Source: Brachyspira intermedia PWS/A
GTDB taxonomy: Bacteria > Spirochaetota > Brachyspiria > Brachyspirales > Brachyspiraceae
Assembly (NCBI RefSeq): GCF_000223215.1
Contig: NC_017243.1
Coordinates: 992,001-1,056,000, forward strand
DNA: 64,000 nt
Reading direction: 5' to 3'
Position numbers and translations under genes: made by a program. Below the pieces are notes generated by a model. That model did not search any database. It was not told the DNA's origin and worked only from the letters and a program-made list of their open reading frames with translations. Every line of letters starts with the position of its first letter. Within the stretch, counting starts at the first letter, position 1. This document shows, piece after piece, positions 43,415-47,542 of the stretch.

Positions 43415-44998
43415 TTATTTTTTATTCTTTTCTGCTTTTATATAAGAAGAGAAATTATTCAATATAGATTTTATATTTTTATACATTTTAGCATCTTCTT
43501 GATATTTTAGAGTTTCTTTAACTTTGGTATCTATTTCTTTTAGGTTTGTCAAATAGTTATTAAAATATTCATCTATTGTTTTATTATATTTAGATACCAG
43601 ATTCTCTTCCTCGTATGCTTTAATAACCTTTTTGGAAAGAGTCTTTTTCCAATTTCCAGAGAAAGACATAAATCCAGATAATATAAATACAACACTAGGA
43701 AGGAATGATAAAGATACTCCTACAATGTTTATTATTTTCATTGTGCTACTTTTTAATAAATTAAATGAAGGTAGGATACCTATAGAAAGATTTATTAAAT
43801 TTGTTTTTATTTTATTAGGTTCTTTAGTATCAAAATCTTCTTTTGTAACAGCAAGCATATTGTATAATTGTGTATCAAGATTTACGTTTATGCTATTGCA
43901 TAATACTTTTATATCATCTTTTTTTCTGTATACATTGTTATCATCAATAGATTGAATTATACTGTCTATATTAAGAGTATTTCTGTATATTTCATTAAAT
44001 GCTTCTTTAACCGATATTTTTATTTTATTTAAATTAACTTCTAATTTATCATTTTCTTGGAATTCATTTTTATTGTCTATTATTTCTGTAATGAAATTAA
44101 TATTTGTTAATATTCTGTTATAATAAGCATATTTTATATTTTCAGCAAAATCATCTTTAATCTGCTTAACTAGATTAGTGTTATTTATTGAAAATGGGAA
44201 AAATCTTTTTCTTAATGAAGAATAATCTATTTTTTTTATATTATTAGAAGATTCGATAAAGTTTTTTAATGTTTCAAACTTTTTATCAATAACACTGCCT
44301 AATTCATTTTCATCAAATATATTTGCTTTTGAGAATATTACAGATATATTACTAAAATCATCTATAAAATTAGCTAAGGCATTTATATTTGTAATATCTT
44401 CCTGAGAAAATGCATTTATATCACATAAATAAATAAACATATTTTGATTATTGTATTTTCTAGTATCAAGAAGACTTTCTTTGTACTCAATAATTCTAAA
44501 TAGCTTAGAATCATCATTCAAAAAATATTCATCATTATTCGTTTCTTCAGAATAAGGATTCGTGTCGATATTTTTATCAAATATTGCATTAATGAATGAA
44601 GTTTTTCCTGAGCTGTATCTTCCATATACTACAATATCAAAAGTTTCACTGATTTTATTAAAAATATCAGCGGTCAGTTCAGATATTTTTTCATTATTCT
44701 TTTTGTCTACTGTACTTATTTCTTCATTAATTTTATCTATGATGACTTGTACATTAATAAGATTCTCATAAAGATATGGATTTTCACTTTCAAAAGAATT
44801 CTTTTTATACTTTGTAAGTTCATCAATAGTAAGTCCAGTATTTTCTGCAAGCTTATCCAATAGGTCAAGGGTTATATTATTTGCATTTCTCTCTAATCTT
44901 GAAATATAATCCTGACGCACGCCTAACATCTTAGCAAATTGGCTTTGTGTTAGTTTCAAAATTTTTTCTCTAATATCTTTTAAATTAAAATCAATCAT
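43415..44998 (-). CDS. XRE-type HTH fused to a dynamin-like GTPase
   Basis: 527 aa. Residues about 5-62 are an XRE/Cro helix-turn-helix (TQSQFAKMLGVRQDYISRLE is the recognition unit). A linker follows, then a GTPase domain with P-loop GRYSSGKTS (about 123-131) and a possible G4 element FSKAN (near 220; the usual Asp is replaced by Asn). A coiled region and a membrane hairpin at about 415-445 follow. The architecture is that of bacterial dynamin-like GTPases with an added DNA-binding head, which is unusual. It could couple membrane state to transcription of the divergent operon (a 10-bp palindrome lies at 45247). No ribosome site is obvious. Confidence 0.7.
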   Translation of the reverse strand: MIDFNLKDIREKILKLTQSQFAKMLGVRQDYISRLERNANNITLDLLDKLAENTGLTIDELTKYKKNSFESENPYLYENLINVQVIIDKINEEISTVDKKNNEKISELTADIFNKISETFDIVVYGRYSSGKTSFINAIFDKNIDTNPYSEETNNDEYFLNDDSKLFRIIEYKESLLDTRKYNNQNMFIYLCDINAFSQEDITNINALANFIDDFSNISVIFSKANIFDENELGSVIDKKFETLKNFIESSNNIKKIDYSSLRKRFFPFSINNTNLVKQIKDDFAENIKYAYYNRILTNINFITEIIDNKNEFQENDKLEVNLNKIKISVKEAFNEIYRNTLNIDSIIQSIDDNNVYRKKDDIKVLCNSINVNLDTQLYNMLAVTKEDFDTKEPNKIKTNLINLSIGILPSFNLLKSSTMKIINIVGVSLSFLPSVVFILSGFMSFSGNWKKTLSKKVIKAYEEENLVSKYNKTIDEYFNNYLTNLKEIDTKVKETLKYQEDAKMYKNIKSILNNFSSYIKAEKNKK

Positions 44999-45374
44999 AT
45001 TTTTTCTGTTTTTACTCTGTTATTTTATTTTGTATTATTATAAACAATATTATTTAGAATTTCAAGGGTTTTTATGTATTATTTGTATAACAAAAAGACT
45101 TATATATATATTTAAAATAAATAAAGCATTTTTAATGAAATTTTTAAGTTTAAAAATATTAAAAAATAAAATTGTTTAAAGTTATTTTATTTATGTTGTC
45201 TATAATTAATTAAATTATTCTATTTTTATATAGATATTTTATATATCCTATATAGGTATATATATAGTGATGCTATATAGTTTTTAATATGTTTTTATAC
45301 ATAACTTATTGATTTGTTTGTATATTTGTATATAATTATTTTATAGAAGAAAATAATTATATACAGGATACTAT
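44999..45374. other. Divergent regulatory region
   Basis: 376 bases, very AT-rich. It holds a perfect palindrome CCTATATAGG (45247-45256), a candidate operator, and TTGATT (45309-45314), 16 bases, TATAAT (45331-45336) toward the HPr-like gene. No ORF. Confidence 0.45.
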
Positions 45375-46544
45375 ATGGAGAATAATGATTTTATATCTAA
45401 AGAGTTTGAATGTAGAAATTCTATTGTAACTGATAATAAAACAGTTAATTCCATTGTAGATTTTTTTAGAACTATTGAGGATAAAATAGAAATAGAAAAC
45501 AAGAATGGAAAAAGAGTTAATGCTAAATCTTTTATAAAGATGATGGGGCTTGATATAAAATATGGATATAGATTTACATTATATATTTATGGAACTGATA
45601 GAGAAAATAATTTAAAAAGAATAGAAGAAATATTGGAGAAAAAGGAATTTTATACTTTAGAAAAAATAGCGGAACTAGAAAAAGAACAAGAATCAGAAGA
45701 TAATAAATTTATACAAGAAGAAATATTATATCTTACTCCAGATGATAAAAAAGATATTATAAAAGAAGATATAGAAAATAAAATAAAAATATTGAAAGAA
45801 AAAAGAGATTCACTTCATTTACCTTCTTTAAATTTGAATAATAACATTGTATACATAAAAAATGATGATAAAACAGAAATTTTTGATGTTATTAATAATG
45901 ATATAGCTGATATTATAAAAAATCTATCTTCTCATTACGAGATAAATATAAATGAAAATGATTTAAATGTTTTCTTATCTGAGTTAATAGAGGATGTGAA
46001 AGTTAGAGAGATGAAATATTTTTATATATATACTTTCTTTAGCAATGTAAAAAAATATTTTTATAATCAATTTGATTCATTATTTATCAAAAAAATGATA
46101 GGTATAGAAAATTTAAAAGTTGAATATAGTTTGGAAACTAATAAAACTTTTGTAGATGAATCTATTAAGACTTTGGAGTTTATATTAGATGATAAGAGAA
46201 AATCTTCTGATTATTCTGTAAATATATATATGATTTCAAATTCTTCAAATTTGAGTATGGATCTTTACAGAACAATAAATATAGTTCAGAATATTGGTAA
46301 AATTTATGAGATAGAAGAAAGTATCATTGATAATATTGCATACAAAATAAAAGAAAATTTCGAATACAAAAACAAGATTAACACTTCTCATAATAATGAA
46401 GAGTATTTTGATGCCATAAGAGAGTTTAAAGAATATTTGCAGGAAAAATTCGAAGCTATTTATATAAATAAAGTTCTTGAAAATGACTCTGAAGATTCTG
46501 CTATTGACTATCAGCATATAAATTTAATGGTAAGGAGGCTTTAA
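45375..46544 (+). CDS. HPr/Crh-like domain fused to an unknown helical region
   Basis: 389 aa. Residues about 10-85 align by eye with the PTS phosphocarrier HPr: NKNGKRVNAKSFIKMMGLDI matches the HPr stretch 'NGKxVNAKSIMGxMSL', and RFTLYIYGTDRENNLKRIEEIL its last strand and helix. Ser52 sits at the regulatory Ser46 position. The catalytic His15 is missing: no His occurs in residues 10-30, and the usual GLHARPA is TDNKTV, so PEP-dependent phosphorylation is impossible, as in Crh. Residues 90-389 are charged, partly coiled and unrecognised. AGGA precedes the ATG. It is divergent from the HTH-dynamin gene and directly followed by a phosphoesterase. Confidence 0.6.
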   Translation: MENNDFISKEFECRNSIVTDNKTVNSIVDFFRTIEDKIEIENKNGKRVNAKSFIKMMGLDIKYGYRFTLYIYGTDRENNLKRIEEILEKKEFYTLEKIAELEKEQESEDNKFIQEEILYLTPDDKKDIIKEDIENKIKILKEKRDSLHLPSLNLNNNIVYIKNDDKTEIFDVINNDIADIIKNLSSHYEININENDLNVFLSELIEDVKVREMKYFYIYTFFSNVKKYFYNQFDSLFIKKMIGIENLKVEYSLETNKTFVDESIKTLEFILDDKRKSSDYSVNIYMISNSSNLSMDLYRTINIVQNIGKIYEIEESIIDNIAYKIKENFEYKNKINTSHNNEEYFDAIREFKEYLQEKFEAIYINKVLENDSEDSAIDYQHINLMVRRL

Positions 46545-47240
46545 ATGAAGATTGCTGTTATAGGTGATTTACATGGGAAAAGCTGTTGGAAAAAACTTAT
46601 TGAAGGAAGGTTTGATAAGTTTGATAAAATAGTTTTTATGGGAGATTACAGTGATGACAGCTGGGTTACTTTTACTGATGAAGAGATAGTTAATAATTTA
46701 AAAGATGTAATAGAGTTCAAAAAAAATCATGATGACAAAGTTATTCTGCTTATAGGTAATCATGATTTTCAATATATAGTTGGATATCCTACAGCAAGCA
46801 GATACAGAAAAAGTTATTCTAAAGAAATGCATGAAATATTTAATGATAATACTGATATTTTTAAAACTATACATATAGAAAATAATTATATATTCACTCA
46901 TGCCGGCATTACTAATGGCTGGATTGAATATATAAAACAGAGATATGATATAAAAGATATTAATATTGATAATATTTATGATGTTGTGAATATTATTTAT
47001 AAAAATGATAAAGATGATTGCAATATAGCTTCTTTTAGAAGAGGAGGCAGAAGTAAATTTGCTGGTATATTATGGGCAGATAAGGAAGATTTGTCAGAAG
47101 ATGCATGGACAGGATATAATCAGGTTGTAGGACATAACAGAGTAAAGCCTGGAAGTGTTATAAAAAAAGATAGTTATGCTATTTATATGGCAGATCATTT
47201 CGATACAGAACAAGATAAATTATCGGTATTAGATATTTAA
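46545..47240 (+). CDS. Calcineurin-like metallophosphoesterase (PPP-type)
   Basis: 231 aa with the full set of metal-site motifs in order: GDLHG (residues 8-12), GDYSDD (about 32-37), GNHDF (about 74-78), THAGI (about 119-123) and GHNRV (about 205-209). It is of the PPP/ApaH/PrpE group (protein phosphatase or dinucleoside-tetraphosphate hydrolase). The ATG directly follows the TAA of the HPr-like gene (no gap), so co-expression is tight. A phosphatase beside a protein that carries an HPr-type regulatory serine is suggestive, but the link is inference. Confidence 0.85.
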   Translation: MKIAVIGDLHGKSCWKKLIEGRFDKFDKIVFMGDYSDDSWVTFTDEEIVNNLKDVIEFKKNHDDKVILLIGNHDFQYIVGYPTASRYRKSYSKEMHEIFNDNTDIFKTIHIENNYIFTHAGITNGWIEYIKQRYDIKDINIDNIYDVVNIIYKNDKDDCNIASFRRGGRSKFAGILWADKEDLSEDAWTGYNQVVGHNRVKPGSVIKKDSYAIYMADHFDTEQDKLSVLDI

Positions 47241-47257
47241 AAACAGAGGAATTAACT

Positions 47258-47542
47258 ATGTTTCCAGATAAAGCTCCTTTTCATTATAAATGCAGAAATT
47301 GCGGATATTTTTTCACCACTGATAAAAAATTGAATGCTCATTCAGAACTTTCTTTTGTATCGCTTGATTTTAAAGATGCAGAGGAAAATGAAAAAGATGA
47401 AAACGTAGAGAAAATATTTAAAATTGATTCAGAATCTAAAAAAGAATCTTTTATAGATAAAATTTTTAAAAAACTATCTCCTAAATGTCCTAAATGCAAT
47501 GAACATGCTGTTGTAAGTGTTGACTATATGGTTCATAAGTAA
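47258..47542 (+). CDS. Small zinc-ribbon protein
   Basis: 94 aa with CRNC (residues 10-13) and CPKC (about 78-81) knuckles flanking an acidic, charged middle (about 35-65). The four cysteines probably bind one zinc. No further family is recognised. It lies 17 bases after the phosphoesterase with an AGAGGA ribosome site, so it belongs to the same operon and could be an adaptor or nucleic-acid-binding part. Confidence 0.65.
   Translation: MFPDKAPFHYKCRNCGYFFTTDKKLNAHSELSFVSLDFKDAEENEKDENVEKIFKIDSESKKESFIDKIFKKLSPKCPKCNEHAVVSVDYMVHK

Follow-up and report, generated by a model that had tools for sequence, protein, structure and literature searches.

A helix-turn-helix dynamin-fold protein and a Crh-like HPr operon as separable neighbours in Brachyspira

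Bacterial dynamins are membrane remodelers, some of which protect against phage, and Crh of Bacillus is phosphorylated by HprK/P and acts with CcpA. In mycobacteria, the regulator IniR is encoded beside iniBAC (PMC5760070), the operon of the dynamin IniA. In Bacillus subtilis, DynA protects against phage, and its protection requires both GTP binding and GTP hydrolysis (PMC8844932).

The window analysed here is a stretch of 64,000 nucleotides from Brachyspira intermedia PWS/A (positions 992001-1056000 of the forward strand of a 3,304,788-bp contig), whose whole genome of 3,308,048 bases comprises a chromosome of 3,304,788 and a plasmid of 3,260 (PMC3163572). As in a preliminary description of the same DNA, the open reading frames, strands and coordinates define two divergent units: an HTH-dynamin gene and, facing away from it, an operon of three tightly packed genes (45375-47542, plus strand) separated by 0 and 17 bases (Table 1). 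We consider it probable, if only just, that these are two neighbouring units, an autoregulated HTH-dynamin of mobile-element kin that is likely a pseudo-GTPase and a separate HprK-responsive module. What is established directly concerns the sequences, predicted folds, motif losses, conservation, separability and relatives of these genes, and chief among the new findings stands the HTH-dynamin family, with its reduced Brachyspira member.

Table 1. Features of the two divergent units, in window coordinates.
Feature	Position	Strand	Basis
HTH-dynamin-like protein, 527 aa	43415..44998	-	ORF, Pfam-type profile match, predicted fold
HTH-coding part of HTH-dynamin gene	44807..44998	-	residues 1-64, conservation across 17 species
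putative sigma-70 promoter of HTH-dynamin gene, TTGAAA-17-TATAAT	45037..45065	-	11/12 matches
AT-rich block, strongly conserved	45111..45180	.	17 genomes compared
palindrome CCTATATAGG, candidate operator	45247..45256	.	conserved position upstream of HTH-dynamin gene
putative sigma-70 promoter of operon, TTGATT-16-TATAAT	45309..45336	+	motif match
Crh-like HPr domain fused to ~300-aa helical domain	45375..46544	+	PF00381, predicted fold
calcineurin/PPP-like metallophosphatase, 231 aa	46545..47240	+	metal ligands complete
94-aa protein, two invariant CxxC pairs	47258..47542	+	no family above cut-off

Gene order and the intergenic region across Brachyspira

The HTH-dynamin and the operon trio are present in 18 of 26 species, a distribution that a single gain can explain, so that finding both in a genome says little for or against a link. 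Every one of the 18 genomes with the trio keeps its three genes together, including one where it is partly masked (G024; frameshifts there were ruled out, the stretches being masked as N). In 14 of the 18 genomes the two units sit next to each other in divergent orientation; a contig break divides them in one (G020), and they are apart in three, a B. murdochii-type genome, B. innocens and strain G79, with the HTH gene on another contig than the operon or about 0.5 Mb or more away from it. Further, in a B. pilosicoli-type clade the phosphatase occurs without its operon partners, at a different locus. Given this separation in three species and the lone phosphatase in another clade, the earlier proposal of a four-gene system is not supported, nor are the four genes supported as an obligate unit. 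Similarly, the expected co-occurrence of the four families largely gave way, with plasmid and phage HTH-dynamins also having no HPr-like or phosphatase neighbour annotated.

The palindrome CCTATATAGG has its sole exact copy within the 64-kb window at 45247. A regulon of the palindrome was looked for and rejected: the exact 11-mer is found elsewhere in the genome at two places, both within coding ORFs. In 13 of 17 genomes a G+C-bearing palindrome occupies positions -254 to -263 relative to the start codon of the HTH-dynamin gene, compared to an average of 1.1 genomes and a maximum of 5 in shuffled sequences, though kinship among the genomes inflates these counts. Across genomes it reads CCTATATAGG, CCTATAGG or CCCTAAGGG, keeping its place while its letters differ, and it is missing or broken in four (L103, L112, L118 and L107) whose HTH is unchanged. 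In the separated clade (G016, G017 and G024), the palindrome remains by the HTH-dynamin gene, and none precedes the detached operons (L114, L116 and L121), on which ground an operator common to both units was rejected. The preliminary description had the HTH binding the shared intergenic region; DNA binding is very probable, but a shared operator is not supported, as the palindrome accompanies only one of the two units.

The promoter match of the HTH-dynamin gene sits 39-67 bases upstream of its start codon and is kept in most orthologues, those of the separated clade included; promoter-like sites in the region show no enrichment over shuffles, such matches being common in AT-rich DNA. The conserved AT-rich block in Table 1 sits beyond this putative promoter, upstream of the HTH-dynamin gene.

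The same locus contains other GTPases in a few genomes. DUF697-type GTPases occur in only two of the 26 genomes (G021 and G022), both of which have copies beside this phosphatase. In G021, two other GTPases and a 139-aa protein occupy the same syntenic slot (L098:4155-7836) next to the phosphatase, where neither an HTH-dynamin nor an HPr-like gene is present. In G011, a 26-residue relic of a DUF697-type GTPase lies upstream of the HPr-like gene (L109:9813-9890), while G022 has four clustered GTPase genes (369, 560, 583 and 369 aa) at L171:7100-12792, away from the locus. Because of this second cluster elsewhere in G022, the link of DUF697-type GTPases to the locus is suggestive only.

An integrated four-gene system, where the HTH-dynamin would act from the shared intergenic region to repress or activate an operon whose products are its outputs, is improbable and was rejected as the main reading because the units are separable. 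It would account for the divergent arrangement in 14 of 18 genomes plus the one with a contig break, for a palindrome about 53 bp upstream of the operon's putative -35, and for the other GTPases or their relic at the same locus in G022, G021 and G011; against it, the three species with separated units keep the palindrome beside the HTH gene only, the alvinipulli group has no palindrome although the genes are neighbours, and the plasmid relatives have no operon. Two observations count against the two-unit reading in turn, namely the divergent neighbourhood in 14 genomes and the loss of the palindrome from four genomes with an unchanged HTH.

A dynamin fold with a helix-turn-helix head, and its mobile relatives

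The XRE helix-turn-helix is indeed on the same chain as the P-loop domain (HTH_3, E 4.8e-13, residues 6-61). The chain is ordered as the XRE HTH (1-64), a dynamin-fold G domain (~116-290), a helical trunk, a hydrophobic part (~419-448) and C-terminal helices. A Foldseek search with the AlphaFold model (mean pLDDT 70.8, the HTH part being of low confidence) gives a list headed by LeoA (4aur, 8e-6), BDLP (2j68, 1e-5) and IniA (6j73, 4e-5), plus a DLP pair, and IniA aligns to the model over 362 residues with a Z of 12.8. The predicted fold thus has the G-domain and helical trunk of the dynamin superfamily. The G1 P-loop is present as GRYSSGKT; in contrast, no G3 DxxG is found in the 527-aa protein, residues 132-233 having no glycine at all, and the position of the standard G4 (NKxD) reads SKAN. 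What had been called a P-loop GTPase keeps its P-loop but is not a complete GTPase, and since G3 and the standard G4 are missing, we class the protein by its dynamin fold and do not count it among the active dynamin GTPases. The lack of G3 makes GTP hydrolysis doubtful and, judged by motifs and alignment, the protein is likely a pseudo-GTPase. As to the membrane hairpin claimed earlier, the hydrophobic part is present, but hydropathy shows one hydrophobic stretch, too little to support a hairpin.

In 17 Brachyspira species the head is invariant at residues 1-56 and 58-64, with a T/S alternation at 57. The HTH-coding part has a pN of 0-0.019 versus a pS of 0.18-0.64, while pN in the rest of the gene reaches about 0.1-0.25 in distant species. 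A DNA-level constraint behind the frozen HTH was ruled out, as 17 of its 19 four-fold sites vary. The low pN alongside free synonymous change therefore places the head under strong protein-level selection and, because the HTH is frozen and the palindrome conserved, the head very probably binds DNA. Extreme selection on the head, together with the loss of GTPase motifs, argues that DNA binding is the retained function.

A DNA-binding head and a hydrophobic segment on one chain, and an exact 11-mer that the genome has between genes only once, could also suit a role in chromosome organisation, in which the HTH-dynamin would tether a chromosomal site to the membrane and set the position of DNA, not transcription. 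Such a role is very unlikely: the gene is absent from 8 of 26 species, the literature search found no precedent, and a single site fits autoregulation at least equally.

A search of 345 Spirochaetota genomes with the 527-aa protein gave matches confined to the genus Brachyspira. A plasmid search then revealed a 744-aa HTH-GTPase on a mobilizable plasmid of Carboxydocella. Through it, further members, annotated as 'dynamin family protein', were found on mobilizable plasmids of Lactococcus (five records, each plasmid with two such places), Lactiplantibacillus and Acinetobacter, and in four P2-like phage records of Vibrio. HTH_3 scored in all plasmid members tested, and the head of the Vibrio member is HTH-like by alignment only. 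The Brachyspira and plasmid/phage profiles align over the whole chain (hhalign, 521 columns, E 1.1e-26) and, without the HTH, over 445 columns (4.6e-15), so that an XRE head and a dynamin body homologous along the chain are found in the Brachyspira protein as well. An intact G3 (DxPG) is present in six of six relatives and absent from the 527-aa protein. Neither HPr-like nor phosphatase neighbours are annotated in the regions read around these members, whose plasmid gene tables are incomplete, and no downstream partner common to the Carboxydocella and Vibrio loci was found.

Several relatives have dyads upstream. The Vibrio relative has paired dyads, AGACAAAAATGTCT and AGACAAAAGTGTCT (0 of 500 shuffles), the Carboxydocella and Acinetobacter members have a single dyad, and a 34-bp inverted repeat can be seen in the sequence upstream of a Lactococcus member. 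In the P2-like Vibrio phage records, the HTH-dynamin gene (L183:7608-9905) is flanked by replication/late-control genes on one side and portal genes on the other, and two AGACAAAAnTGTCT dyads precede it. On one lactococcal plasmid (L179:1191-8847), two HTH-dynamin genes flank two hypothetical genes and are possibly a paired system. Among the papers searched, we found none combining dynamin, XRE, phage defense and GTPase, and no description of an HTH-dynamin family on plasmids or prophages.

These relatives raise the explanation of a phage-defence dynamin, whose HTH would hold the protein off until infection and whose dynamin body would then act at the membrane. DynA is a precedent (PMC8844932), and LeoA/LeoBC (Eleos) has been proposed to act likewise; moreover, P2-like phage records of Vibrio contain relatives placed between replication genes and structural genes, others are carried by lactococcal plasmids, where one member adjoins a restriction subunit, and the relatives' C-termini match LeoBC profiles at up to 2e-16. 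For the Brachyspira protein, this explanation is tentative and rather unlikely: its match to LeoA is weak (1.4e-3) and its other matches are HTH models, the gene sits on the chromosome and has been inherited within Brachyspira, and the motifs for the GTP binding and hydrolysis that DynA protection requires (PMC8844932) are partly lost. No close viral or phage copies of the Brachyspira HTH-dynamin or of the HPr-like protein were found.

The Crh-like module

The first operon product is an HPr-like protein, as described initially (PF00381, E 2.4e-9; structure model versus HPr, Z 15.5), with a total of 389 residues that include a helical part of about 300 residues missed at first. Its HPr domain is a paralogue of, and closest to, Brachyspira's own HPr. 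Among 20 HPr-like sequences, the His15-equivalent position is D in 18 and N in 2 (Asp in B. intermedia), whereas the Ser46-equivalent is Ser in all 20 (S52 in the B. intermedia protein). HprK/P and a canonical HPr are encoded elsewhere in the same genome, and HprK/P is found in 18 of 19 Brachyspira genomes searched, the exception (G006) being an incomplete assembly. Since His15 is lost, Ser46 kept and HprK/P encoded elsewhere, the domain is Crh-like, and the same three observations support the serine-phosphorylation logic that had been suggested for the operon. Crh is a single HPr domain of about 85 residues; because of its helical C-terminal part, the 389-residue protein is called Crh-like and not filed as Crh.

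The helical domain occurs only in Brachyspira among the sequences examined, and a fold search with it gave no clear match; an MxA-stalk fold was rejected, as its Z of about 6 is within the noise for helical models. An alignment of the domain with itself is at most suggestive of an internal repeat (hhalign, 2.6e-5). Three species of the alvinipulli group have a second copy of the HPr-like fusion, about 40% identical (L103:7991-9127, L112:9110-10246 and L118:7903-9039).

The phosphoesterase assignment was borne out (Metallophos, 2.3e-13), with ligands D8, H10, D34, N72, H119 and H197 invariant in 22 orthologues. Compared to the PPP motifs GDxHG, GDxVDRG and GNHE, it reads GDLHG, GDYSDDS and GNHD, lacking the Arg of GDxVDRG. 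The four cysteines of the third protein (C12, C15, C77 and C80) are likewise invariant, in 17 orthologues.

Proposed mechanism and comparison with known systems

Under the two-unit reading, the minus-strand gene would be a vertically inherited Brachyspira member of a family whose other members detected in this analysis are carried by plasmids or appear in phage records. The XRE head of its product would most likely bind as a dimer to a dyad operator at its own gene, causing autorepression, while the dynamin body without G3 and G4 could bind nucleotide via its P-loop, with GTP hydrolysis improbable; the HTH-dynamin may then be a membrane- or nucleotide-responsive DNA-binding switch. In the other unit, an HPr paralogue that is barred from the His15 phosphorelay keeps the HprK/P serine and is joined to a putative helical output domain. 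Phosphorylation of Ser52 would mark this Crh-like effector, the phosphatase may remove that mark or have the output as its target, and the CxxC-pair protein would be the third component of the module. A highly improbable extension ties both units together: the dynamin would be its own transcription factor, tied to carbon status by the HprK-phosphorylated Crh-like partner, creating a DNA-to-membrane sugar-signalling switch.

A dynamin subfamily with its own DNA-binding head, found on plasmids and in phage records and with dyads upstream of several of its genes, suggests that a dynamin can control the gene that encodes it. In a spirochaete, the fusion of a Crh-like protein to an output domain would take Ser-HPr signalling further than the partners known for it.

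The HTH-dynamin has the dynamin G-domain and trunk fold of LeoA/LeoBC (Eleos) and BDLP, and the C-terminal halves of its relatives match LeoBC profiles; in contrast to these systems, the Brachyspira protein has an XRE head, has lost G3 and G4, and is encoded by a single gene and not by the LeoA/LeoBC pair of Eleos (LeoA score 1.4e-3). The phosphatase has the GDxHG, GD, GNHD, HAG and VGH motifs of the PPP/calcineurin-like, ApaH and YfcE proteins, but its best family scores are far under the curated cut-offs. Like Crh of Bacillus, the HPr-like protein combines an HPr fold, the absence of His15, a kept Ser46 and HprK/P in the genome; it differs from Crh in being closest to its own HPr, in its Asp at 15, in its ~300-aa helical domain, and in the metallophosphatase gene that adjoins its own. 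Finally, the mycobacterial IniR-iniBAC system also links a DNA-binding regulator to a dynamin gene (IniA), but the regulator there is a separate ATPase, whereas the Brachyspira dynamin-fold protein carries the DNA-binding head on its own chain.
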